The notes below the pieces were generated by a model. That model made no database searches and had not been told where the DNA came from. It saw only the letters and a list, made by a program, of their open reading frames with translations. 64,000 nucleotides of DNA from a virus: the IMG/VR virus record IMGVR_UViG_3300009164_000064, positions 1-64,000 of that record, one strand, 5' to 3'. Shown piece by piece: positions 7,018 to 48,793 of the stretch (position 1 is its first letter; every line of letters begins with the position of its first letter). The translations under genes were made by a program, and so were the position numbers.

Positions 7018-7563
7018 TTATAGCCCACTACTCATTTGGTTCATAATAATACGAGTTTCGTTTGAAATCTTTGGAATAGTAATGCCCTTCTTGGCATTCT
7101 TCCTAGCTTGATCAAGATGAATCTTGTTAGCTCTTTTAGTGTAAAGTACACCATTGAGATGGTCAAGCTCATGTTGAAAAATACGTGCAGTCATTCCACT
7201 AAACTTTTCGGTAATGACATTGCCATTAGGCTCAGTATATCGAACACGAATATGCTGTGGGCGCTTAATCTTAACAAAAAGATTTGGCTGTGAAAGACAA
7301 CCTTCTTCAAGGACAATCAAGTCATCAGATACAGATAATAGGATGGGATTGAAACAGACAATGATTTGCTCTGCCAGCATCGCAAACGCACGATATGGTA
7401 AGCCAATCTGGTTAGCAGCAATACCAACACCACCCTTATCTAGCATAGTTTCTGCTAGATCATGAGCAAGTTGGATAGGGTCTGTTGGGGGGTTTTGGAA
7501 ATTAAACTTATCCAACTCTGTCTTGAGAATTGGATGATGTTTATCCACTAGTTCATGGATCAT
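7018..7563 (-). CDS. def: peptide deformylase
   Basis: Metal-dependent removal of the formyl group from the N-terminal methionine of nascent proteins. All three family motifs are present: GVGIAANQ (45-52), EGCLS (87-91) with the metal-binding Cys89, and QHELDH (130-135) with His131, Glu132 and His135. Length 181 is close to bacterial enzymes, and the C-terminus is longer than in the compact cyanophage version as I remember it. Phage deformylases are known auxiliary genes thought to sustain translation of phage or host proteins during infection. The gene overlaps the upstream 79-residue gene by one base. Confidence 0.95.
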   Translation of the reverse strand: MIHELVDKHHPILKTELDKFNFQNPPTDPIQLAHDLAETMLDKGGVGIAANQIGLPYRAFAMLAEQIIVCFNPILLSVSDDLIVLEEGCLSQPNLFVKIKRPQHIRVRYTEPNGNVITEKFSGMTARIFQHELDHLNGVLYTKRANKIHLDQARKNAKKGITIPKISNETRIIMNQMSSGL

Positions 7564-7802
7564 TATATACTCCTGTTCAAAACTTCATTAAATAATTCAT
7601 TGAGGTGTTCGTCTAGGTTAGGTACCTGTCGTACTCTTGCCAGCCAAACATCATATACAAGTGTATTTATACGATCAAAATTGGTGTTATCATCTTTTTT
7701 TGATACTTTATAATCTCTTTCTTCAAGTTCTTCGATCAATTCTTCATCATCAAAGTCTTCAAGACACACATCGATATTAACTGATACATTCTTATACGTC
7801 AT
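7563..7802 (-). CDS. hypothetical acidic protein (79 aa)
   Basis: A small acidic protein: an N-terminal beta strand (YKNVSVNIDVCLEDF), an acidic helix DDEELIEELEERDYKV, then a helical C-terminus ending in LNELFNEVLNRSI. The DDEELIEELEERGY-like helix is a theme in many small phage proteins without known function. It overlaps the 90-residue gene upstream by 4 nt and abuts the deformylase gene, so it is part of a coupled chain from 46. No catalytic motif is visible. Confidence 0.65.
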   Translation of the reverse strand: MTYKNVSVNIDVCLEDFDDEELIEELEERDYKVSKKDDNTNFDRINTLVYDVWLARVRQVPNLDEHLNELFNEVLNRSI

Positions 7803-8071
7803 ATTTTTTTCTCACGTGCAATAAAATATGGCTGAAACTCACGACATACAGTGAACTTACCAAGCAACTCAGGCTCATCTTCTAGTTCATCACGCTTCCA
7901 CAGATAGAACTCTAGCTCTGTAGCGTTTTCCCAATTACTGTTATCATCATACTCTCTGGCGCAATCTTCTACGACATTAGAGTAATCTTCATAATCATAT
8001 TGATGGTTCCATTCGAAATAATCATCAAAATTAGCATCATCTACTGTGTAATAAAACTTTCTCATTACCAT
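7799..8071 (-). CDS. hypothetical Tyr/Asp-rich protein (90 aa)
   Basis: Very rich in Asp, Glu and Tyr (for example DDANFDDYFEWNHQYDYEDY), probably a compact acidic domain; such acidic phage proteins can mimic DNA or inhibit host enzymes, but nothing specific supports that here. The start ATG at 8071 is preceded by AGGA at 4-nt spacing and overlaps the final codons of 46 by 7 nt. It occupies the place of the small 46.1/46.2 genes of T4. Unrecognised family. Confidence 0.65.
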   Translation of the reverse strand: MVMRKFYYTVDDANFDDYFEWNHQYDYEDYSNVVEDCAREYDDNSNWENATELEFYLWKRDELEDEPELLGKFTVCREFQPYFIAREKKI

Positions 8072-9768
8072 ACTATCCTACTAAAGTTTTTAACTTTTTT
8101 GAACTTAATCTCATGATCGAAACGATCTTTGACACGACTATTGTGTGAGATAACAAACACGTTAGAATCTTCCTGCTTACTGAGGATTTCAAACAACGCA
8201 TCTTCTGCTTCATCATCAGCAGGACCATCACACACTTCATCTAGGATCAACAGGTTTGTTGCCACTGAATTGCGTAGTCTTGCAACTTCACGCCATGTAA
8301 ACATCAGCGCCAAATCGATACGAAACTTCTCACCTTCAGAGAACGACTCATATGAGAATGTATCTCTAAAACGAGACTTTAACACTTCATTGAACTCTTC
8401 GTCAAGATTAAACTCACAAAGAAAGTCCATGTCAGCAAGATATTTGTTGATTGTCTTGTTGATGATAGGAATGTACTGTTGAACAATCTTGGTCTTGATA
8501 CCGCTATCCTTAAGGAACACGGCAGATACATCAAGGATTTCCTTGTGCTTTTTCATGATAGACAAGTTGTCTTTATGCTCTACCAGTTCAACCTTAGCGT
8601 TATCATAGTCGCTGTTATCTTCAATGGTGTTAGCAACATTACGTAGAGCAATAATTTCTTTGTTCAACTCAGCGATACTGCGATTGTATAGAGTGATCTT
8701 GGTGTTGCTATCTTGAATAGAACGATTTAACATGGTTATCTGTGTGTTAGTTGTTTCAATCTGATTGATACGATCATTCACATCCTTAAGCTTTTGCTTA
8801 AGATCATCAACCCCACCAGAAACTTCTTGAAGCTTACCGCTACGCTTTTCTACCACACTGCCCTTATAATCAGGATCAATATCTTGCTTACAGGTAGGAC
8901 ATTCATCATGGTTATTAAAGAAATCAATTTCCTTCTTCAACCCACGAATGCGTTCGTTTAAGGCAGAACCCATCTCAATGATTTTGTTCTTGCGCTTTGA
9001 TACTTTATCTTCGTCAGCAATCTCTTCTAGAAGCTCATTAACCTGAGACTGATATCCATTGATACCAACATTTAACAGGCAACAGTCTGCTTCAAGCTCC
9101 TGTACCTTGATTTCCTTCTGAGCGATTAGTTCTTCATTGTTTGCCTTGAGCGAATCAATATGCTTTTTATGAAGGGCAATCTTTTGCTCACATAATTCAA
9201 TCTCGTACTCTGTCTCTCTTATATGAGACTTGTTCTCTGAAATACGTGACTTCAGAATACCGTTCATAACAGAAAAGATTTGAATATCAAGATAGTCTTC
9301 TACGATCTTGCGGCGGTCAGGAGTTGTCAGGCGCATGAAAGGAATGTAGTTAGCAGAGCCAAGCACCACCACCTGAGTGAAGGTCTTGTGGTTCATCTTG
9401 ATATGGTTCTTTTCAAAGTTCTCTTGGTCTTCTCTAGCACCTTCCTTATCAAGCATCTTACCGTTGCATGTGATATCAAACACGGTTGGCTTCATACCAC
9501 GACGAATTTGATACTCTGTACCATTGATAGACATGTCAAGTTCCACCATCAAACCTTTGTTGGTGATAGTGTTCATTAGCTGCTTAAGAGTGATGTTGCG
9601 GAATGGCTTATTGAACAGCACGTAGCAAAGTGCATCAAGAATAGTAGACTTTCCGCTACCATTCTTGCCAGAGATAAGTGTTAGGTCATTACGGATCAGG
9701 TCAATCTCAGTGAATTGGTTCCCTGATGACAGAAAGTTTTGATATCGCAATTTCTTAAAAAGAATCAT
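8065..9768 (-). CDS. 46: recombination nuclease ATPase subunit (gp46, Rad50-like)
   Basis: With gp47 it resects DNA ends for recombination-dependent replication and host DNA breakdown. The domain order is the Rad50/SbcC one: Walker A GKNGSGKST at residues 34-42, a long coiled coil (about 170-290), a zinc hook CPTC near residue 295, returning coiled coil, ABC signature FSEGEKFR near residue 470, Walker B LLILDE with D-loop near 505, and the switch His in VISHNSR. Length 567 compares with 560 in T4. Three nucleotides separate it from 47. Confidence 0.97.
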   Translation of the reverse strand: MILFKKLRYQNFLSSGNQFTEIDLIRNDLTLISGKNGSGKSTILDALCYVLFNKPFRNITLKQLMNTITNKGLMVELDMSINGTEYQIRRGMKPTVFDITCNGKMLDKEGAREDQENFEKNHIKMNHKTFTQVVVLGSANYIPFMRLTTPDRRKIVEDYLDIQIFSVMNGILKSRISENKSHIRETEYEIELCEQKIALHKKHIDSLKANNEELIAQKEIKVQELEADCCLLNVGINGYQSQVNELLEEIADEDKVSKRKNKIIEMGSALNERIRGLKKEIDFFNNHDECPTCKQDIDPDYKGSVVEKRSGKLQEVSGGVDDLKQKLKDVNDRINQIETTNTQITMLNRSIQDSNTKITLYNRSIAELNKEIIALRNVANTIEDNSDYDNAKVELVEHKDNLSIMKKHKEILDVSAVFLKDSGIKTKIVQQYIPIINKTINKYLADMDFLCEFNLDEEFNEVLKSRFRDTFSYESFSEGEKFRIDLALMFTWREVARLRNSVATNLLILDEVCDGPADDEAEDALFEILSKQEDSNVFVISHNSRVKDRFDHEIKFKKVKNFSRIVW

Positions 9769-28358: not shown

Positions 28359-29102
28359 TTATCCAACCATATCTGAAACAGGAAGTGAATAACTTGAAAT
28401 CATTTCTGCTTCCATTTTTTCAATTTCAGCCTGAGCATCATTGAAAATCTTTTCTCCATTAAACTGTACACCACCGGGTAATTGCATACCAGTAAACTTA
28501 GTAAGATTTGATCCCCACTGATACTTGATCTTAGCTGTGGCATAGTTTTGAAGCCAACGATCAGACCAAACTTGTGTGTATTCGTTTGGATCAACAATCT
28601 CATAGGCTTCGACTAGAAGATATTCACCAACATTAGTTTTTTTCCAATCCATATCAACATACAGACGATCCTTGTGTCGATTATAGCGAATTGGCTGTTG
28701 ACCAACAAGCAACTCTGCAATAAGAGAAAGGTGTTCCATGGCCATATAGTATGGAACCATAGAAACGCTTGTTAATGAATAAAGATCGTTTAGAGCAATC
28801 TGATATCTAATATTAAAAAGATCATCCGAACGAATGCTAGGATCAGCAATAGGAAATACTCTTACCGCACCAATGATATTTTCTGGTAAAGTAATGTATT
28901 TGTCTGCTACGTTATTTGCAGTTATTTGCTGCTTGTAGTAAATCTTCTCAGTACCATCAAAGTGATAATCCCAATAATAACGAAGAGTTTCATCAATACG
29001 ATCATCCACTTGATCATCATCGACATTAATTTCGATTACTGGCTTACCAAGCTTACGTAAGCAATATTCTTTGAATTCTGGTCTTGTTGTTGGAACTGCC
29101 AT
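28359..29102 (-). CDS. 13: neck protein (gp13)
   Basis: Head-completion protein. Recognised by position at the start of the 13-14-15 set and by the pattern RPEFKEYCLRKLGKPVIEIN, then DDQVDDRIDETLRYYWDYHF and DGTEKIYYKQQIT, found in gp13 of cyanophage-like phages. Length 247 (T4 309). An octamer variant AATAAATA lies 26 nt upstream. The whisker gene wac, next to 13 in T4, is not seen; a sulfotransferase-like gene and a polyglycine adhesin take that place. Confidence 0.92.
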   Translation of the reverse strand: MAVPTTRPEFKEYCLRKLGKPVIEINVDDDQVDDRIDETLRYYWDYHFDGTEKIYYKQQITANNVADKYITLPENIIGAVRVFPIADPSIRSDDLFNIRYQIALNDLYSLTSVSMVPYYMAMEHLSLIAELLVGQQPIRYNRHKDRLYVDMDWKKTNVGEYLLVEAYEIVDPNEYTQVWSDRWLQNYATAKIKYQWGSNLTKFTGMQLPGGVQFNGEKIFNDAQAEIEKMEAEMISSYSLPVSDMVG

Positions 29103-29127
29103 TGCTTAATCCTACTTGGTTTTCTTA

Positions 29128-29135
29128 TATTTATT
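29128..29135 (-). promoter_or_regulatory. 13: late promoter-like octamer AATAAATA (gene 13)
   Basis: Seven of eight bases match, 26 nt before the gp13 start codon, at the junction with the sulfotransferase-like gene. Spacing agrees with the perfect copies elsewhere. Confidence 0.5.
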
Positions 29136-29955
29136 CGAATGTATATCCGAATGTTTCCAAATCTTCAGCATATCTCTGTGTTATCAGATCATATGCTTCA
29201 TTGGTGTATTGAGTTTTATAGTCATCAACCGTTGCACTATTAATTTTTGTATCGTATAACTTGAACTTTTCGAAGTCTCCACCAATGTTATTGCAGATTG
29301 TCTCCATGGCATTTGTTCTGCCTTCATATTTAAAGACATTGCACACGACTGAATTACTCTCATCAACAAAATAAGATTTCTGTGTTCGAATATTACTATT
29401 TGGCCATACAACCGTATCACGAATATTGATAACCCAATCACTAAATGAAGTGCCTATGTTCAATTTTCTTTCATCAAAAACCAAACTGTTCATTTTGACC
29501 ATTAGACTATAGAGGCTATATTCTCTGTCATACGGATTTCTAACAAATCCAAAAACATAAGGATTTGTTAGTGAAATGTGTTGAGCGATTTCAATGTAGT
29601 TAGAATGCCTACTTCTTCTTTCTGGTATGTCTGATGGTATTCTCAGCGTCTTTCCTTCACAACATTTGTTTAAGAAAAGACTCAATCCAGTACCACTTGT
29701 TCTTGGATTATGGATGAATATATAAGGATTTTCTTCTCTATAAATGGCATTTCCAGTAATTGCAGCCGCAAAAGTTTCATTTTGTCTATTGAAAAAATTA
29801 ATTGCTGCTTCGATATTTTCGTCTTTCAACAGAATACCATTATCATCACAAATTGCAGGAATTGAAAAGTTTACTTCTTCGTATTTACTACGAATAGTTC
29901 CTTTAAAATGACCTGAGCCATCAGCAATAAGACTATAATTTAATACTGTTGTCAT
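29131..29955 (-). CDS. sulfotransferase-like protein (PAPS-dependent family)
   Basis: Sulfotransferases move sulfate from PAPS to a sugar or other acceptor. Two family signatures are seen in order: a 5'-phosphosulfate-binding loop-like IFIHNPRTSGTGLSLFL at residues 79-95 (compare the usual F-x-H-x-PKTGGTS), and a 3'-phosphate-binding-like VFGFVRNPYDREYSLYS at 134-150. The C-terminus (RYAEDLETFGYTF) has the usual Y-x-x-D-x-x-x-FGY ending. The loop has Arg for the usual Lys, a conservative change. The N-terminal 75 residues are unrelated and look like a separate domain. It overlaps the polyglycine adhesin gene by 4 nt, so it may modify phage fibres or host surface glycans. Confidence 0.82.
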   Translation of the reverse strand: MTTVLNYSLIADGSGHFKGTIRSKYEEVNFSIPAICDDNGILLKDENIEAAINFFNRQNETFAAAITGNAIYREENPYIFIHNPRTSGTGLSLFLNKCCEGKTLRIPSDIPERRSRHSNYIEIAQHISLTNPYVFGFVRNPYDREYSLYSLMVKMNSLVFDERKLNIGTSFSDWVINIRDTVVWPNSNIRTQKSYFVDESNSVVCNVFKYEGRTNAMETICNNIGGDFEKFKLYDTKINSATVDDYKTQYTNEAYDLITQRYAEDLETFGYTFE

Positions 29956-32402
29956 GTAAATGTTACCACTTTTGTTGCGCCAGTAAATACATTTGATTCA
30001 CTTGTGAACCAAAGCCAAGATGTTGATGTTCCGCCTGAATAAATAGCATCAACTCGATTGAAAGCTGTATTACCAACAGTCATTGTGGTCCAGTTATTTG
30101 ATCCTGAACCATTTGCTGTAAATGTAACAGTATTACCGGCATAAAGTTCGTTATACTCAAAATACAAAGATTTAATTGCAGCACCAGAACTCACATTGAA
30201 TGTTCCATCACTGATTGAGCCATATGTAAAGTTTACTGTATCATATCCATAATAATATTGGTTATATGGAAAATAAAATGTTCCATATACAGTAGAACTA
30301 CCAATAGTAACGGTCTGAGTATCTAGAATAGCTTGTGTACCGTAGAAATTACGAAGACTGATAGTTCCGCTTGATGGTACAGAACCATATGTTCCAGTTG
30401 TATTAGCAGCGACATATGTACCACCAGCATAATATTCATTTATACTGATTGGGACACTACCACCAAATATTTGCTGAATATTGTAGAGCGAAATCGATCC
30501 ATTAGCAGTGTATTGTGGAAATGCGTATGGTACGTACTGGATGATTACAGCACCAGCAGCACCATTACCAGCAGCAGTAGTTGGACTACCACCACCGCCG
30601 CCACCGCCGCCACCACCAATAAATCCACCAGCAGCGCCCACACCAGCAGCAATACCACCACCACCGCCGCCACCAGAACCATATAAAGTTCCACCAACTG
30701 TATTTGCAAATTCTACTCCAGCGCCACCAACGGTAGCACTAGCAGTAGCTGTAGTTCCACCAAATCCACCAGAACTTGAGGCGGGTACTAAACCATCAAA
30801 GCCAAGACCACCAGTTCCCTGTAAACCAAATCCTAAGTTTGGTCCATTTACGCCACCACCTTGACCACCAACATAACCATATATATTGATACTTCCAATC
30901 TTGCCAACACCACCATCACTTAAAATAGAAGCACTCGAACCACCGCCACCGCCACAAGTAGCAGCAGTTCCAATACCATTACCACCAGCACCACCACTTT
31001 TCTTTGTGGTTCCTACGCCAGATGCAGCAGCACCGCCAGAGCCACCAGCCCCACCAGTACCAGCAGTTCCTCCACTACCACCTTTTGCAAGAACACCATC
31101 GGTAGATGATGATGGTACTGATGCAGAAACTCTACTCACCCAAGTATCACCACCAGAAGCACCAGAAGTATTATTTGCAGTAGCACCAGAACCACCAGCG
31201 CCAATTGAATAGTAAAGAGTGTTTCCGCCTGATAAGCCACCAATTAAATTCATGTCGGTCACACCAGATAGTGCACCACCGCCACCACCTGCACCGCCAC
31301 CAAAAGCAGCACGAGCACCACCACCACCAGCACCAAATGCCATGATAGTAGCGCCGCTATTAGTCCAATCATTTGGAACAGTCCAAGTTGATCCTGAAGT
31401 AATAACAACAGTTTTTATTTTTGGTAATGTTGTGTATGTAACAATGATACCACCGGAACCACCAGCCCCGCCATTAGCACTGGTAGAAGCACTAGTAGCA
31501 GAACCACCGCCACCGCCACCACCTGAACCTAGCATATCAGCAGCACCACCAGAATTAGGAGTAGAAGTTGATGTTCCACCACCACCACCGCCGCCGCCTG
31601 AAGTGCCAATTACACCACTAATTGTGCTAATAACTCCAGTGTTAGCGCCACCAGCGCCGCCCATGCCAGCATTTGTGCCACTGGTAGAACCACCGCCACC
31701 ACCACCGCCACCGCCTAGTGTTCCAGCAAAACCAGCACTAGTAGCAGCACCACCAGCAGCAGTACCAGCAATAAGATTTTGACCACCAGCACCACCTGAC
31801 GTTGACGTAGAGGAAGTACCAGCAGTTAGGTATCCACCGCCGCCGCCACCACCATAGCTTGATGCAGCACCACCAGCAGAACCAGTATATTCATTACTAC
31901 CAGCAGAACCGCCACCGCCACCACCATGAGAAGTTGATGTACCACCAGCGCCGCCTGATTTACTTATAACATAAAAGCCATTAGCAAAATTGCCACCTGC
32001 ACCACCAGTGCCATTTGAAGCACCACCACCACCTGATCCACCTTTAGCAAGTATGCCAGTATTATTTGATGTTGGTGGAGTATTAGTTGAGGTACTTGTA
32101 GAAGTATTCCAATTTACCCAAGTATCACCTCCTGCTGCACCATCAGTAGAATTTGATGATGCACCAGCGCCACCAGCGCCAATAGAATAATAGATAGGTG
32201 CGCCTGGCACTGCTGTAAATGATGATAATGACACAGCACCACCGCCACCGCCACCGCCACCAGTTGCAGAAGTTCCGCTAGTTCTTCTACCGCCACCACC
32301 GCCACCACCATAACAGTAGATAGACATTAAAGTAGTTGAATCATAGTCAGTAGGTACTTGCCAGACAGTTCCGCTACGTAGAAAGATATATTTTGTTGCC
32401 AT
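29952..32402 (-). CDS. polyglycine-rich tail adhesin (816 aa)
   Basis: Most of the protein is two copies of one unit. Each opens with a strand module (TVWQVPTDYDSTTLMSIYCY; STWTVPNDWTNSGATIMAFG), then many glycine runs of five to nine residues. Each shares PIYYSIGAGGAGAS / TLYYSIGAGGSGAT and DTWV ... ILAKGGSGG. Such glycine-rich motifs form polyglycine-II sandwiches in T4-like adhesins (Salmonella phage S16 gp38). The C-terminal 180 residues are beta-rich (SISLYNIQQIFGGSVPISIN, then GTISLRNFYGT). It lacks a membrane segment or signal. I infer a receptor-binding tip. The start overlaps the stop of a 43-residue gene (TAATG). Confidence 0.82.
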   Translation of the reverse strand: MATKYIFLRSGTVWQVPTDYDSTTLMSIYCYGGGGGGGRRTSGTSATGGGGGGGGAVSLSSFTAVPGAPIYYSIGAGGAGASSNSTDGAAGGDTWVNWNTSTSTSTNTPPTSNNTGILAKGGSGGGGASNGTGGAGGNFANGFYVISKSGGAGGTSTSHGGGGGGSAGSNEYTGSAGGAASSYGGGGGGGYLTAGTSSTSTSGGAGGQNLIAGTAAGGAATSAGFAGTLGGGGGGGGGSTSGTNAGMGGAGGANTGVISTISGVIGTSGGGGGGGGTSTSTPNSGGAADMLGSGGGGGGGSATSASTSANGGAGGSGGIIVTYTTLPKIKTVVITSGSTWTVPNDWTNSGATIMAFGAGGGGARAAFGGGAGGGGGALSGVTDMNLIGGLSGGNTLYYSIGAGGSGATANNTSGASGGDTWVSRVSASVPSSSTDGVLAKGGSGGTAGTGGAGGSGGAAASGVGTTKKSGGAGGNGIGTAATCGGGGGSSASILSDGGVGKIGSINIYGYVGGQGGGVNGPNLGFGLQGTGGLGFDGLVPASSSGGFGGTTATASATVGGAGVEFANTVGGTLYGSGGGGGGGIAAGVGAAGGFIGGGGGGGGGGSPTTAAGNGAAGAVIIQYVPYAFPQYTANGSISLYNIQQIFGGSVPISINEYYAGGTYVAANTTGTYGSVPSSGTISLRNFYGTQAILDTQTVTIGSSTVYGTFYFPYNQYYYGYDTVNFTYGSISDGTFNVSSGAAIKSLYFEYNELYAGNTVTFTANGSGSNNWTTMTVGNTAFNRVDAIYSGGTSTSWLWFTSESNVFTGATKVVTFT

Positions 32403-33467: not shown

Positions 33468-33579
33468 CCTGAGCTTCTGACCATCTCAAAAGAACGTGAC
33501 CCTGAGCAGTACCTGTTGCATTATTGGCAACTGGTACTGAAATTGCAGATATTACGCTTTTCAATGTAACGTCAGCCAT
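33463..33579 (-). CDS. tiny protein downstream of large fibre (38 aa)
   Basis: Open frame in the gap after the 1563-residue fibre gene: it begins ATGGCTGA, overlapping that gene's final codons (the same overlap as at 40179-40186), with AGGA just upstream. The product is MADVTLKSVISAISVPVANN, then ATGTAQGHVLLRWSEAQA, weakly beta. Its composition (many Ala/Val, no Cys) suits a small structural or folded peptide. The overlap and ribosome-binding site favour reality; function unknown. Confidence 0.55.
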   Translation of the reverse strand: MADVTLKSVISAISVPVANNATGTAQGHVLLRWSEAQA

Positions 33580-36500
33580 TGTCCTGTTCCTTATTTATTA
33601 ATGCTTTAACAAGTTCTTTCAACTCATCAATCTGTGTCTGTTGATCCTTGATTGCTTCAATAAGAAGTGGTACAATGCGATCATATCTAACTGTTAGATA
33701 GTTTTCGCCTGTCTTGCTTCCACCATCCTTACCAATATCAAATGGAGCACGTGCAACAGCATCTGGAATAATCTTTTCAATTTCCTGAGCAATAACACCA
33801 TGTTCGTGGATTTGACCGGGAATAAAATCATATTTATCACAAAGTTCCTTATCCCAATCGAAGGTATAACCACCAATTTGTTGAATTTTCTTGATAGGTT
33901 CTTCAATTGGAGTAATGTTCTTCTTCAAACGTCTATCTGAAGAATATGCAGTGATGTTTCCTGTGTGTGTCAATCCAGTTGTATTAGCAGACATGTAGTT
34001 GGTTGTACCACCATACCATTTAAACTGTTCAGTATTAGTTTGAGTACCAAACCACATAGTACCGCTTTCAACACCAATAGCCATACCAGCAGATGATGCA
34101 CTGATGCTATCGTAAATAACAAGCTTTACGCCAGCACTATATGAAGTGAATGCAGGAGCAGCAACACCACCAGCACCCCACATGATACGATTTGAAGTAG
34201 CATTTGAAAAAACAATAGAATTTGCACCAACAGATGATGTAATTGTACCTGTCATAGTACCACCAGCAAGTGGTAGCTTAGTAGAGTCTGTCGCACTAGC
34301 AGCAGAAGCAACACTCAACTGGTTTTCATTTTTACCATAGGCATATGTCGCATTATTAGCAGTAAATGTTGTACCAGTTCCTGTTAATCCTGTACCAGCA
34401 CCAGTAAAACTTGTAGCACTAAATGCACCAGTGTATGTAAGAGCACCAGTTCCCGCTCTACCTAACTTACTAGTTGAATCGGCATTACCAAATATAATAT
34501 ATCCATTATTTGCACTTTGCTGTCCTCTAATAGACATTGTATCGGCAACATTAATATCACCAATCCAAACATCATCACCAACTTTAAAATTTGTACCACT
34601 ACCATTATTAGTTGCAGCTACAGTATCTGCCGTTAGTGTTGTAAAAGCACCAGTGTTTGCTACTGTTGAACCGATAGCACCAGCAGTTTCCCATCTTCTA
34701 CTAGCAAGATATGAAGCATTGTTGGCAGCGCCTGTAATATCAATACCCCACGTACCAGAAGCATTAGTACCTGTTGTTGATGGAGCACCCACTGTGTTAT
34801 AGCTGATCGTTACAGCAGCAGAACCATTAAATGTATTACCAGATGCTGCACCAGAACCGCCGTTATTAAATGTAACAGCGTTTGTTGTATTACCACTACC
34901 AGCAGAAACTGATCCCCAGAATACACCGCTGCCATTTGAGGTCAGAACAAGGCCATTAGCACCCAGAACGCCGTTAGCATAAATACCGCCCTTAAAGTTG
35001 GTATTGCCATTTAATACAGTGTTGGCAGAAGCAGTCAATGTAGTAAATGCACCAGTATTTGCTACTGTTGAACCAATGGCACCAGCAGTTTCCCATGTAC
35101 GACCTTGTAGATATGTCGAGTTATTAGCTGTTGCAGCAGTACCACTCAATGAGGCAGCAGTGGCAACTGACAACTGACTTTCCTGCTTACCATATGCATA
35201 TGATGCACTATTTGCATAGGTTGCATTATTAGCAGTTAAAGTACCAATCGTTGATGTATCGACAGTTCTTGTCCACGATCCACCATTATGTGCTTTATAC
35301 CAAAGACCATTGCTATCTGTTCCCATCAAAGAGAACCCTCTTGTAGCGACATCACCAGCACCCATACCAAACCAATAACCAATGGCTGTCATACCTGATG
35401 GAACATTTGTTGAGGATGATATGTTAACAAATCTTGTTTCATATAGTGATGGCTGAGTGTTTAGATCATATCCATAATATGTTCTACCACCATTCATTGA
35501 AGCATATGAAATAACTTGACCAGCAGTTGCTGTTACCGTATTAGCAACACCGCCAGATTGGTTTGTAGTAAGAGTAGTGAAAGCACCAGTGTTGGCTACT
35601 GTTGAGCCGATAGTACCAGCAGTTTGCCATGTTCTGTCTTGTAAATAATTTGCATTATTACCAGATGCGCCACCAGCAGAAACTGATCCCCAAAATACAG
35701 ATGTACCATTTGATGTTAGGACAAGTCCATTAGCACCAAGAGAATTATTAGCATATATACCACCAGCAAAAAAGCTGTTACCATTATGAACAGTATTTCC
35801 AGAAATAGTAAGGATAGTAAACGCACCAGTGTTGGCTGTTGTTGCGCCAATTGGTCCTTGGAAACCCGCACTTCCTATTGTTGCCCAAGAGGTTAATGCA
35901 GTTGAATCGCCTGTTTTTTGACCAAATACTATTGAATCTGATGTATTTGGAACACCGAGTTGGAACCCTGCATTCGTGATTGCCAAACGCAAAGTTGTAG
36001 TAACGCTGTCGGTAAACTTTGCTATAGTACTGCCATTGGTTGTGGCAGTTGGTCCTACAAAAGTAGGAACATTCGATAGTACCATACTTCCGGTTCCAGT
36101 GACCGAATTGGCTAAGGCAACACCCGCATATGTTAGAGCGCCATTCAGAGCAGTGTTAGCAGAAGCAGTAAGAGTTGTGAATGCACCAGTATTAGCTACT
36201 GTCGAGCCAATCGCACCAGCAGTTTCCCATGTTCTTGCTTGTAAGTATGTTGAGTTGTTTGCAGTTGCAACAGTGCCACTTACTGATACAGCAGACGCAA
36301 CACTTAGCTGACTTTCTTGCTTACCGTAAGCATACAACGAGTTATTCGCTGTAGTTGCAAAAGTAGCATTGGCCGCTATAGAAACTGATAACTGGCTTTC
36401 CTGCTTACCATATGCATATAGTGAATTATTTGCAGTTGTTGCAAAAGTAGCATTGGCAGATGTAGAGATTGAACCCCAGAATACAGATGTTCCGTTTGAG

Positions 36501-38263
36501 GTCAGAACAAGGCCATTTGCACCTAATGAGTTATTTGCATATACACCACCAGCAAAGAAGCTGTTACCGTTATGAATAGTATTGCCAGAAATTGTAAGAA
36601 TAGTATGTACTGCGGTATTAGCTACAGTCGATCCGATAGCACCAGCAGTTTCCCAGATACGTCCCTGTAGATATGTTGAGTTGTTTGCTGATGCAGCAGT
36701 ACCACTTATTGATACAGCAGACGCAACACTTAGCTGACTTTCTTGTTTACCATATGCATACAACGAATTATTTGCAGTTGTTGCAAAAGTAGCATTTGCT
36801 GCTATAGCAACTGATAGCTGACTTTCTTGTTTACCATATGCATATAGTGAGTTGTTAGCTGTGGTAGCAAAGGTAGCATTGGCCGCTGCACTTACAGACA
36901 ACTGGCTCTCTTGTTTTCCATAAACATATGATGCACTATTGGCATATAGTGCATTGTTCGCATTTGCCACAGTTCCTGAGATAGATGAAGCGTTTGCCCA
37001 ATAACTGGCAGTGCCGTTTGAGAACAATGCTTGACCAGATGTACCGAATGATCCATTAGCAACAACACCACCATTAAAATAACTATTACCATTATGAATG
37101 GTATTACCAGAAATTATTAATGTTGTAAACGCACCAGTATTTGCTACTGTTGAACCAATGGCACCAGCAGTTTCCCATGTTCTTGCTTGTAGATAGGTAG
37201 CATTATTAGCAGTTGTCGCTGTGCCAGAAGAGACTGATCCCCAAAATACACCAGTGCCGTTTGATGTTAGGACAAGTCCATTAGCACCAAGAGAACTATT
37301 TGCGTAAATACCACCATTAAAGAATGAATTTCCATTATGAATGGTATTACCAGAAATTATTAATGTTGTAAACGCACCAGTATTTGCTACTGTTGAACCA
37401 ATGGCACCAGCAGTTTCCCATGTTCTTGCTTGTAAGTATGTTGAGTTGTTTGCAGTTGCAACAGTGCCACTTACTGATACAGCAGACGCAACGCTTAACT
37501 GGCTTTCCTGCTTACCATATGCATAAATTGTATCATTTGCAGTTGTTGCAAATACTGCGTTAGCAACATACAACTGACTTTCTTGTTTACCATTAAAACG
37601 AAGAGCATTGTTAGCTGTGGTTGCAAAAGTAGCATTTGCTGCTATAGCAACACTTAACTGGCTTTCCTGCTTACCATAAACGTATAGCGAGTTATTCGCT
37701 GTTGTTGCAAAAGAAGAGTTAGCAACAGAGGAAACATTTGCCCAATAACTGGCAGTACCGTTTGAGAACAATGCTTGACCAGATGTACCGAATGATCCAT
37801 TAGCAACAACACCACCATTAAAATAACTATTACCATTATAAACAGTATTGCCAGAAATAGTAAGAGTTGTAAACGCACCAGTATTAGCTACTGTTGAACC
37901 GATAGCACCAGCAGTTTCCCATGTACGACCTTGTAGATAGGTAGCATTATTAGCAGTTGTCGCTGTGCCAGAAGAGACTGATCCCCAAAATACACCAGTA
38001 CCATTTGATGTTAGGACAAGTCCATTAGCACCAAGAGAACTATTTGCGTAAATACCACCATTAAAGAATGAATTTCCATTATGAACAGTGTTGGCAGTAA
38101 TAGTTAATGATGTAAAGGCACCAGAATTCGCACTGACACCACCACCCGTCACGAATAAACCGAGTGTGTTGCCTACTGTATTTAGTGCTGTGTTACCAAG
38201 AAACAAATAACCATCAATAGATGTATTACCATATACTCTTGTACCACCAAGTAATTTTGCCAT
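33572..38263 (-). CDS. giant modular tail fibre with S74 chaperone domain (1563 aa)
   Basis: A long fibre built of two kinds of repeated module: AYGKQESQLSVA-type units with ATFATTANNSLY linkers (about ten copies), and TGAFTTLTISGNTVHNGNSF plus GANGLVLTSNGTGVFWGS units. Near the C-terminus AYSSDRRLKKNITPI with the following YDFIPGQIHEHGVIAQEIE is the S74 intramolecular chaperone, which trimerises the fibre and cuts itself off before a Ser-Asp; the SDxRLKKNI catalytic region is intact. A tip just before it (FSNATSNRIMWGAGGVAAPA and following) is likely receptor-binding. Near-identical 346-nt direct repeats lie at 36996-37341 and 37740-38085. TATAAATA occurs 81 nt upstream. Confidence 0.93.
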   Translation of the reverse strand: MAKLLGGTRVYGNTSIDGYLFLGNTALNTVGNTLGLFVTGGGVSANSGAFTSLTITANTVHNGNSFFNGGIYANSSLGANGLVLTSNGTGVFWGSVSSGTATTANNATYLQGRTWETAGAIGSTVANTGAFTTLTISGNTVYNGNSYFNGGVVANGSFGTSGQALFSNGTASYWANVSSVANSSFATTANNSLYVYGKQESQLSVAIAANATFATTANNALRFNGKQESQLYVANAVFATTANDTIYAYGKQESQLSVASAVSVSGTVATANNSTYLQARTWETAGAIGSTVANTGAFTTLIISGNTIHNGNSFFNGGIYANSSLGANGLVLTSNGTGVFWGSVSSGTATTANNATYLQARTWETAGAIGSTVANTGAFTTLIISGNTIHNGNSYFNGGVVANGSFGTSGQALFSNGTASYWANASSISGTVANANNALYANSASYVYGKQESQLSVSAAANATFATTANNSLYAYGKQESQLSVAIAANATFATTANNSLYAYGKQESQLSVASAVSISGTAASANNSTYLQGRIWETAGAIGSTVANTAVHTILTISGNTIHNGNSFFAGGVYANNSLGANGLVLTSNGTSVFWGSISTSANATFATTANNSLYAYGKQESQLSVSIAANATFATTANNSLYAYGKQESQLSVASAVSVSGTVATANNSTYLQARTWETAGAIGSTVANTGAFTTLTASANTALNGALTYAGVALANSVTGTGSMVLSNVPTFVGPTATTNGSTIAKFTDSVTTTLRLAITNAGFQLGVPNTSDSIVFGQKTGDSTALTSWATIGSAGFQGPIGATTANTGAFTILTISGNTVHNGNSFFAGGIYANNSLGANGLVLTSNGTSVFWGSVSAGGASGNNANYLQDRTWQTAGTIGSTVANTGAFTTLTTNQSGGVANTVTATAGQVISYASMNGGRTYYGYDLNTQPSLYETRFVNISSSTNVPSGMTAIGYWFGMGAGDVATRGFSLMGTDSNGLWYKAHNGGSWTRTVDTSTIGTLTANNATYANSASYAYGKQESQLSVATAASLSGTAATANNSTYLQGRTWETAGAIGSTVANTGAFTTLTASANTVLNGNTNFKGGIYANGVLGANGLVLTSNGSGVFWGSVSAGSGNTTNAVTFNNGGSGAASGNTFNGSAAVTISYNTVGAPSTTGTNASGTWGIDITGAANNASYLASRRWETAGAIGSTVANTGAFTTLTADTVAATNNGSGTNFKVGDDVWIGDINVADTMSIRGQQSANNGYIIFGNADSTSKLGRAGTGALTYTGAFSATSFTGAGTGLTGTGTTFTANNATYAYGKNENQLSVASAASATDSTKLPLAGGTMTGTITSSVGANSIVFSNATSNRIMWGAGGVAAPAFTSYSAGVKLVIYDSISASSAGMAIGVESGTMWFGTQTNTEQFKWYGGTTNYMSANTTGLTHTGNITAYSSDRRLKKNITPIEEPIKKIQQIGGYTFDWDKELCDKYDFIPGQIHEHGVIAQEIEKIIPDAVARAPFDIGKDGGSKTGENYLTVRYDRIVPLLIEAIKDQQTQIDELKELVKALINKEQDNG
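36996..37341 (-). repeat. 346-nt direct repeat, copy A, inside fibre gene
   Basis: Nearly identical to 37740-38085, spaced exactly 744 nt (248 codons), so both copies are in the same frame. It encodes fibre modules NGTASYWANxSS, SFGTSGQALFSNG and ANSSLGANGLVLTSNGTGVF, joined by the GAFTTL linker. Length and near-identity mark a recent duplication or gene conversion. Confidence 0.85.
37740..38085 (-). repeat. 346-nt direct repeat, copy B, inside fibre gene
   Basis: Partner of 36996-37341; only scattered base changes were seen over the length compared by eye. Recombination between A and B would delete or add 248 codons without breaking the frame. Confidence 0.85.
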
Positions 38264-48277: not shown

Positions 48278-48793
48278 CTATACTGTATATAGAGATTCAA
48301 TCTCATCCATGACATTCAACAAAGCCTGAAAGCAGTCTCTAGCTTCTTGTGTGATATCATCACGAGTACGAAAAGTTTGGAGAACAGCAAGCGATTCTTT
48401 ACGATCATCCCATTCTAAATGAAGTGTGGGGAAGCCTTCTAGTCTTCTTCTCATGATTTCACCACCCATTAGATGAGCACCTGTGAGAACATAAGCAGCA
48501 CCAGCAATAGATTTTTCGGTTCTTAAAGATGCAACATAATCAGCAGCAGCTTTAAAAAGTTTAACTTCAGGTTCATGATCCATCGCCTGAAGGTCTTTAA
48601 AAATTCTGTGTGTACGAGAAATGCATTCAGGCATTTGGGGATCAATTGCAGAGTGAATTTGGTACAAGGCCATTAACCAAGCCTTGTACCAAATCCTATG
48701 TGGTTTACCTGTTGCCATAGCACCGCCTACAGCGTGTGCTTCACAAGCATGATGTAGGTCACGTGTTGATTCCCATAACGGTTTAGTTGTCAT
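48278..48793 (-). CDS. heme oxygenase-like protein
   Basis: Heme oxygenases open heme to biliverdin, iron and CO. The N-terminal WESTRDLHHACEAHAVGGAM aligns with the family's T-x-x-x-H-x-x-x-E helix: His14 and Glu18 take the places of the proximal heme ligand His25 and Glu29 of human HO-1. KAWLMALYQIHSAID matches the next helix (xxYHxYxALE). YVLTGAHLMGGEIMRRRL resembles the distal helix (YVLEGSTLGGRVLxRRL of bacterial BphO-type enzymes), with one extra residue before the GG pair. Length 171 is right for the compact bacterial form. No membrane tail. It lies alone among fibre genes; a non-enzymatic relative of the same helical fold cannot be excluded. Confidence 0.75.
   Translation of the reverse strand: MTTKPLWESTRDLHHACEAHAVGGAMATGKPHRIWYKAWLMALYQIHSAIDPQMPECISRTHRIFKDLQAMDHEPEVKLFKAAADYVASLRTEKSIAGAAYVLTGAHLMGGEIMRRRLEGFPTLHLEWDDRKESLAVLQTFRTRDDITQEARDCFQALLNVMDEIESLYTV

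Follow-up and report, generated by a model that had tools for sequence, protein, structure and literature searches.

What does a sulfotransferase-like gene do between the gp13 neck gene and the gene for a glycine-rich tail adhesin, and what would its product sulfate? The locus lies within the first 64,000 nucleotides of the IMG/VR virus record IMGVR_UViG_3300009164_000064 (this stretch is called the window below); the full record, perhaps a fragment, is 72.5 kb long and carries T4-type neck, terminase and clamp genes. The first-pass annotation had placed the gene here from the letters alone, and ORF and PHROG matches confirmed its position exactly (Table 1). Among isolates, the window gp13 is nearest to those of phages of Stenotrophomonas (68%), Caulobacter (57%) and Sinorhizobium (53%). 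In T4 the corresponding place is occupied by wac. The window also contains a heme oxygenase-like ORF among tail fibre genes (48278-48793, minus strand), which scores 25.0 bits against PF01126 (cut-off 23) and found no match in PHROG or NCBIfam, and peroxiredoxin-like and peptide deformylase-like ORFs (1252-1794 and 7018-7563, minus strand) next to the genes for clamp and clamp loader. On the plus strand, long ORFs rich in proline (30508-31782) were dismissed as a composition artefact, since they are simply the glycine-rich adhesin gene read from the opposite strand.

Table 1 Features of the sulfotransferase locus in window coordinates (L090 is the gp13-anchored contig used for comparison)
Feature	Coordinates	Strand	Basis or remark
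gp13 neck protein gene, downstream flank	28359..29102	-	PHROG 211 head-tail adaptor, E 8e-42
Sulfotransferase gene, 274 aa	29131..29955	-	ORF with ATG start, PHROG 3347, fold
N-terminal segment, residues 1-75	29731..29955	-	Not in relatives; modelled at low confidence as three strands and one helix
5'-PSB loop, residues 80-92 FIHNPRTSGTGLS, basic residue R85	29680..29718	-	Conservation; PMC6637879
H117, proposed catalytic base	29605..29607	-	82/87 relatives; aligned on SULT THL His
3'-PB motif, residues 135-149 FGFVRNPYDREYSLY, R139 and S147	29509..29553	-	Conservation
Adhesin stop/sulfotransferase start overlap (ATGA), proposed site of translational coupling	29952..29955	-	Sequence
Glycine-rich tail adhesin, 816 aa	29952..32402	-	Gly_rich_2 (sub-threshold), composition
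Adhesin C-terminal tip, residues 694-816, candidate substrate	29955..30323	-	Missing in L090 along with the sulfotransferase
1,236-bp module, adhesin tip and sulfotransferase	29104..30339	-	No L090 counterpart

The ORF is no chance reading frame, as it matches PHROG 3347 (E 2.7e-17), has hundreds of relatives and is modelled with a sulfotransferase fold. A profile search, on which the first-pass annotation had made its identification depend, aligned residues 73-274 with positions 6-218 of the 219 in the PHROG 3347 profile, and the identification stands on this match and on the fold. Against Pfam PF03567 (Sulfotransfer_2) the window protein scores 17.1 bits, below the curated cut-off of 22 bits, and is therefore assigned to PHROG 3347 rather than counted as a Pfam member; all 64 aligned proteins (the window protein and 63 viral relatives) match the Sulfotransfer_2 model with E up to 0.01. 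Neither an NCBIfam search nor a PDB search with the window protein sequence alone gave a match. The family profile of the relatives reached SULT enzymes in the PDB, in which the THL-motif His aligns with the conserved His of the profile. An AlphaFold model (mean pLDDT 75) is mostly at 80-95 in the core and poor in residues 1-70. When its core was compared with the PDB by VIA-align, the best 50 re-aligned matches were all sulfotransferases, headed by heparan sulfate 6-O-sulfotransferase (Z 10.9, 3.7 Å over 181 residues). Foldseek of the model against the PDB returned no E below 0.001, so the fold claim is based on VIA-align and on the viral protein library, where the best Foldseek E was 4e-9 and the named matches included sulfotransferases of Ralstonia phage RSL1 and Prochlorococcus phage P-SSM7. 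Sequence and model together give good support to the prediction that the window protein belongs to the PAPS-dependent sulfotransferases, in the Sulfotransfer_2/PHROG 3347 group.

Residue conservation was counted over 87 relatives. The two PAPS-binding signatures and the FGY ending that had been read off at first pass were all recovered, the signatures at residues 80-92 (FIHNPRTSGTGLS) and 135-149 (FGFVRNPYDREYSLY), and the ending in the C-terminus ETFGYTFE, with F269 in 77/87, G270 in 45/87, Y271 in 83/87 and F273 in 70/87 relatives. R139 and S147 are each present in 86/87, and H117 is located between the two motifs, giving a basic 5'-PSB residue, a base, and the 3'-PB Arg and Ser. All three residues named essential for sulfotransferase activity in work on RaxST (PMC6637879) are present in the window sulfotransferase. 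Activity had been doubted in the first-pass annotation on the ground that Arg takes the place of the usual Lys. Position 85 is Lys in 71/87 relatives and Arg in 13/87 (either one in 84/87); in RaxST the basic 5'-PSB residue is Arg-11 (PMC6637879), and R79 and R78 have this role in human TPST1 and TPST2 (PMC5562738). Since Arg occurs naturally in relatives, RaxST and the TPSTs, it does not point to inactivity; the doubt falls away, and we rejected the candidate reading of the substitution as inactivating. Position 90 is a mild departure, being Gly in the window protein and Ser in 74/87 relatives. On its residues, the window sulfotransferase is predicted to be catalytically active.

The 4-nt overlap with the adhesin gene, also noted earlier, can be read directly in the sequence as ATGA. 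No Shine-Dalgarno sequence is evident on inspection upstream of the sulfotransferase start, which together with the overlap makes coupled translation likely. The adhesin is 29% Gly and contains eleven runs of 5 or more Gly. The sulfotransferase domain occupies residues ~73-274 of its protein and follows an extra N-terminal addition of about 72-75 residues, for which a scan of viral contigs found a relative only in a second strain (L001).

Among the gp13-anchored contigs, L090 has the gp13 nearest to that of the window (90%). Its adhesin is of the same type, with 56% identity over residues 1-693, and lacks the last ~120 residues; L090 also lacks the sulfotransferase. The two DNAs run parallel up to 30340 and again from 29103, and in between the window holds 1,236 bp (adhesin residues ~688-816 and the whole sulfotransferase) against 81 unrelated bp in L090. 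Given this single gap, the tip and the enzyme came or went as a unit, or stepwise at one place. The adhesin becomes a candidate substrate because this close relative without the enzyme is also without the tip.

Phage sulfotransferases are widespread, with at least 290 relatives from one scan. The best IMG/VR relatives (L011-L014) are 33-36% identical over residues ~68-274, share NPRTGGTN and FGFVRNPYDREYS with the window sulfotransferase, lack the N-terminal segment, and form one clade with it (100/91; bootstrap not fully settled). The gene order in L011 is putative fibre, sulfotransferase, gp13, gp14, gp15, terminase and sheath. As in L011, the enzyme of L012-L014 stands directly behind a related putative fibre gene, and there a collagen-like tail fibre and further genes separate it from gp13. 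None of the genes directly upstream of the enzyme in L011-L014 matched a PHROG family, so that their fibre label reflects position and sequence character; they are not homologous to the window adhesin tip. Tyr-richness, a feature of the tip, was considered as a general mark of enzyme-adjoining fibres and discarded, as it was not found in the L011-L014 proteins. L012 carries a second, very divergent sulfotransferase-like gene directly before gp13 (7547-8179; weak PHROG 3347 match, E 1.9e-5), which overlaps the preceding putative fibre-like gene by 4 nt.

The stretch before gp13 was surveyed in 80 gp13-anchored contigs chosen regardless of sulfotransferases. It is hypervariable across these contigs and collects unrelated genes. 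PF03567-like sulfotransferases occurred in 0/80 of the loci, which led us to abandon the notion that enzymes of this type are a regular feature of the site across the clade. Sulfotransfer_1/3 enzymes above the Pfam cut-offs were found in the pre-gp13 stretch of L105, L121, L128 and L151, 2OG-Fe oxygenases in that of L107 and L121, and glycosyltransferases of GlcNAc, family-25 and family-2 kinds in L121, L128 and L108 (sub-threshold in L151). In L014, the island contains a collagen-like tail fibre together with a 2OG-Fe oxygenase and a glycosyltransferase. These contents suggest that pre-gp13 islands house fibre-modifying enzymes. Upstream of gp13 in L105, L121, L122 and L123, a Sulfotransfer_1 gene and a GlcNAc-type glycosyltransferase gene (PF11397) lie near fibre-like genes; the L121-L123 clusters add a 2OG-Fe oxygenase, a possible series of hydroxylation, glycosylation and sulfation.

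We put at somewhat under an even chance (about 45%) the reading in which enzyme and adhesin are produced together and the adhesin, or a glycan that it carries, becomes sulfated by the enzyme. Translation of the sulfotransferase would be coupled to that of the tail adhesin by way of the ATGA overlap, presumably at a late stage of infection, and newly made adhesin would be sulfated in the cytoplasm, either on hydroxyl groups of the tip or on an adhesin glycan. Nascent virion proteins should be within reach of the enzyme, as it has no obvious signal sequence and is probably cytoplasmic. Sulfation would place more negative charge on the receptor-contacting surface and may thereby alter receptor binding. 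The adhesin reading is favoured by family, fold and the residues R85, H117, R139 and S147, by the gene overlap and the joint absence of tip and enzyme in L090, by the L011-L014 enzymes, whose genes too come immediately after a putative fibre gene within the pre-gp13 island, and by the contents of this island elsewhere, where tail fibres occur with other sulfotransferases, 2OG-Fe oxygenases and glycosyltransferases. Still more tentatively, the tip and its own sulfotransferase may transfer between phages as one module, with which a virus sulfates its own receptor-binding protein. Several observations count against the adhesin reading: the genes upstream of the L011-L014 enzymes are unrelated to the window tip and without PHROG match, tip-like domains in L109, L114, L115 and L097 have no PF03567-type enzyme nearby, the L011-L014 proteins do not share the Tyr-richness of the tip, and a single deletion may explain why tip and enzyme are both missing from the one relative.

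A further point against it, that most phage relatives are situated among glycan genes, leads to the main rival, which we regard as less likely: a polysaccharide on the host surface (LPS O-antigen, capsule or exopolysaccharide precursor) would be sulfated while infection proceeds, hiding the receptor and thereby stopping progeny or competing phages from adsorbing to infected cells or debris. The top fold matches are carbohydrate sulfotransferases acting on heparan sulfate, and relatives in phages and plasmids adjoin glycosyltransferase, epimerase and flippase genes, as sulfation of a polysaccharide would lead one to expect; no glycan gene is recognised beside the enzyme in this record, however, and the gene overlap and the paired absence in L090 tie the enzyme to the adhesin instead. 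A virion substrate is thus favoured over host polysaccharide, based on gene association only. The hypervariable island and its unrelated genes, like the broad substrate range of the sulfotransferase superfamily, would also suit an improbable case in which adjacency to the adhesin is coincidental and the substrate is another virion protein (e.g. the large fibre at 33572-38263), a host metabolite or a lipid, but members of the same clade lie directly behind a fibre-like gene both in the window and in L011-L014. Least probable of all, we think, is that the sulfotransferase fold is inactive and has been kept for another task, such as a structural one or that of a chaperone for the fibre, in which the N-terminal segment would do the binding. 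The Pfam score under the cut-off, Gly at position 90 and the extra N-terminal segment itself would agree with such a role, yet the residues named essential are intact and the ORF is identical in the second strain, where the remaining 4.7 kb carries 8 substitutions; this identity is weak evidence because the strains are so close.

Sulfated virion proteins of phages are, to our knowledge, without precedent; the open-access literature searched yielded no example of them and no paper linking a phage sulfotransferase to a tail adhesin. A phage-borne sulfotransferase is in itself not new, given PHROG 3347 and many annotated phage genes; those found in the literature are named as annotations only, and a 2023 paper states that the function of sulfotransferases in phage genomes remains unclear (PMC10580990). 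What is unusual is the setting, with the enzyme joined to an adhesin gene. This arrangement, and a relative lacking both tip and enzyme, make substrate and effect directly testable. If adhesins are sulfated, receptor prediction from bare protein sequence would mislead.

Compared with known systems, the window enzyme resembles other PHROG 3347/PF03567 phage proteins (e.g. of Synechococcus phage ACG-2014f) in domain, motifs, core length and being phage-borne, whereas they lie among glycan genes and it is coupled to an adhesin, has Arg in place of Lys and begins with 72 additional residues. PHROG 3347 bears the name 'Galactose-3-O-sulfotransferase', in which the acceptor specificity is annotation only. 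AAY80_051 of Stenotrophomonas phage DLP6, the isolate with the nearest gp13 (68%), is ~25% identical over the C-terminal 62% and likewise has Arg at the Lys position, but is encoded near the DNA polymerase gene, outside the neck/fibre region. Heparan sulfate 6-O- and 2-O-sulfotransferases (PDB 5t03 and 3f5f) have a similar core fold (Z 10.9 and 10.2) at 13-15% identity, and differ in being Golgi enzymes of eukaryotes, with substrate clefts of their own. RaxST and TPST1/2, whose substrates are tyrosines, share with the window enzyme only the basic 5'-PSB Arg, the 3'-PB Ser and a catalytic base between the motifs. The metagenomic T4-like phages L011-L014 have no N-terminal segment and a preceding gene unrelated to the window tip, but carry an enzyme of the same clade, behind a putative fibre gene and in the same pre-gp13 island as in the window.
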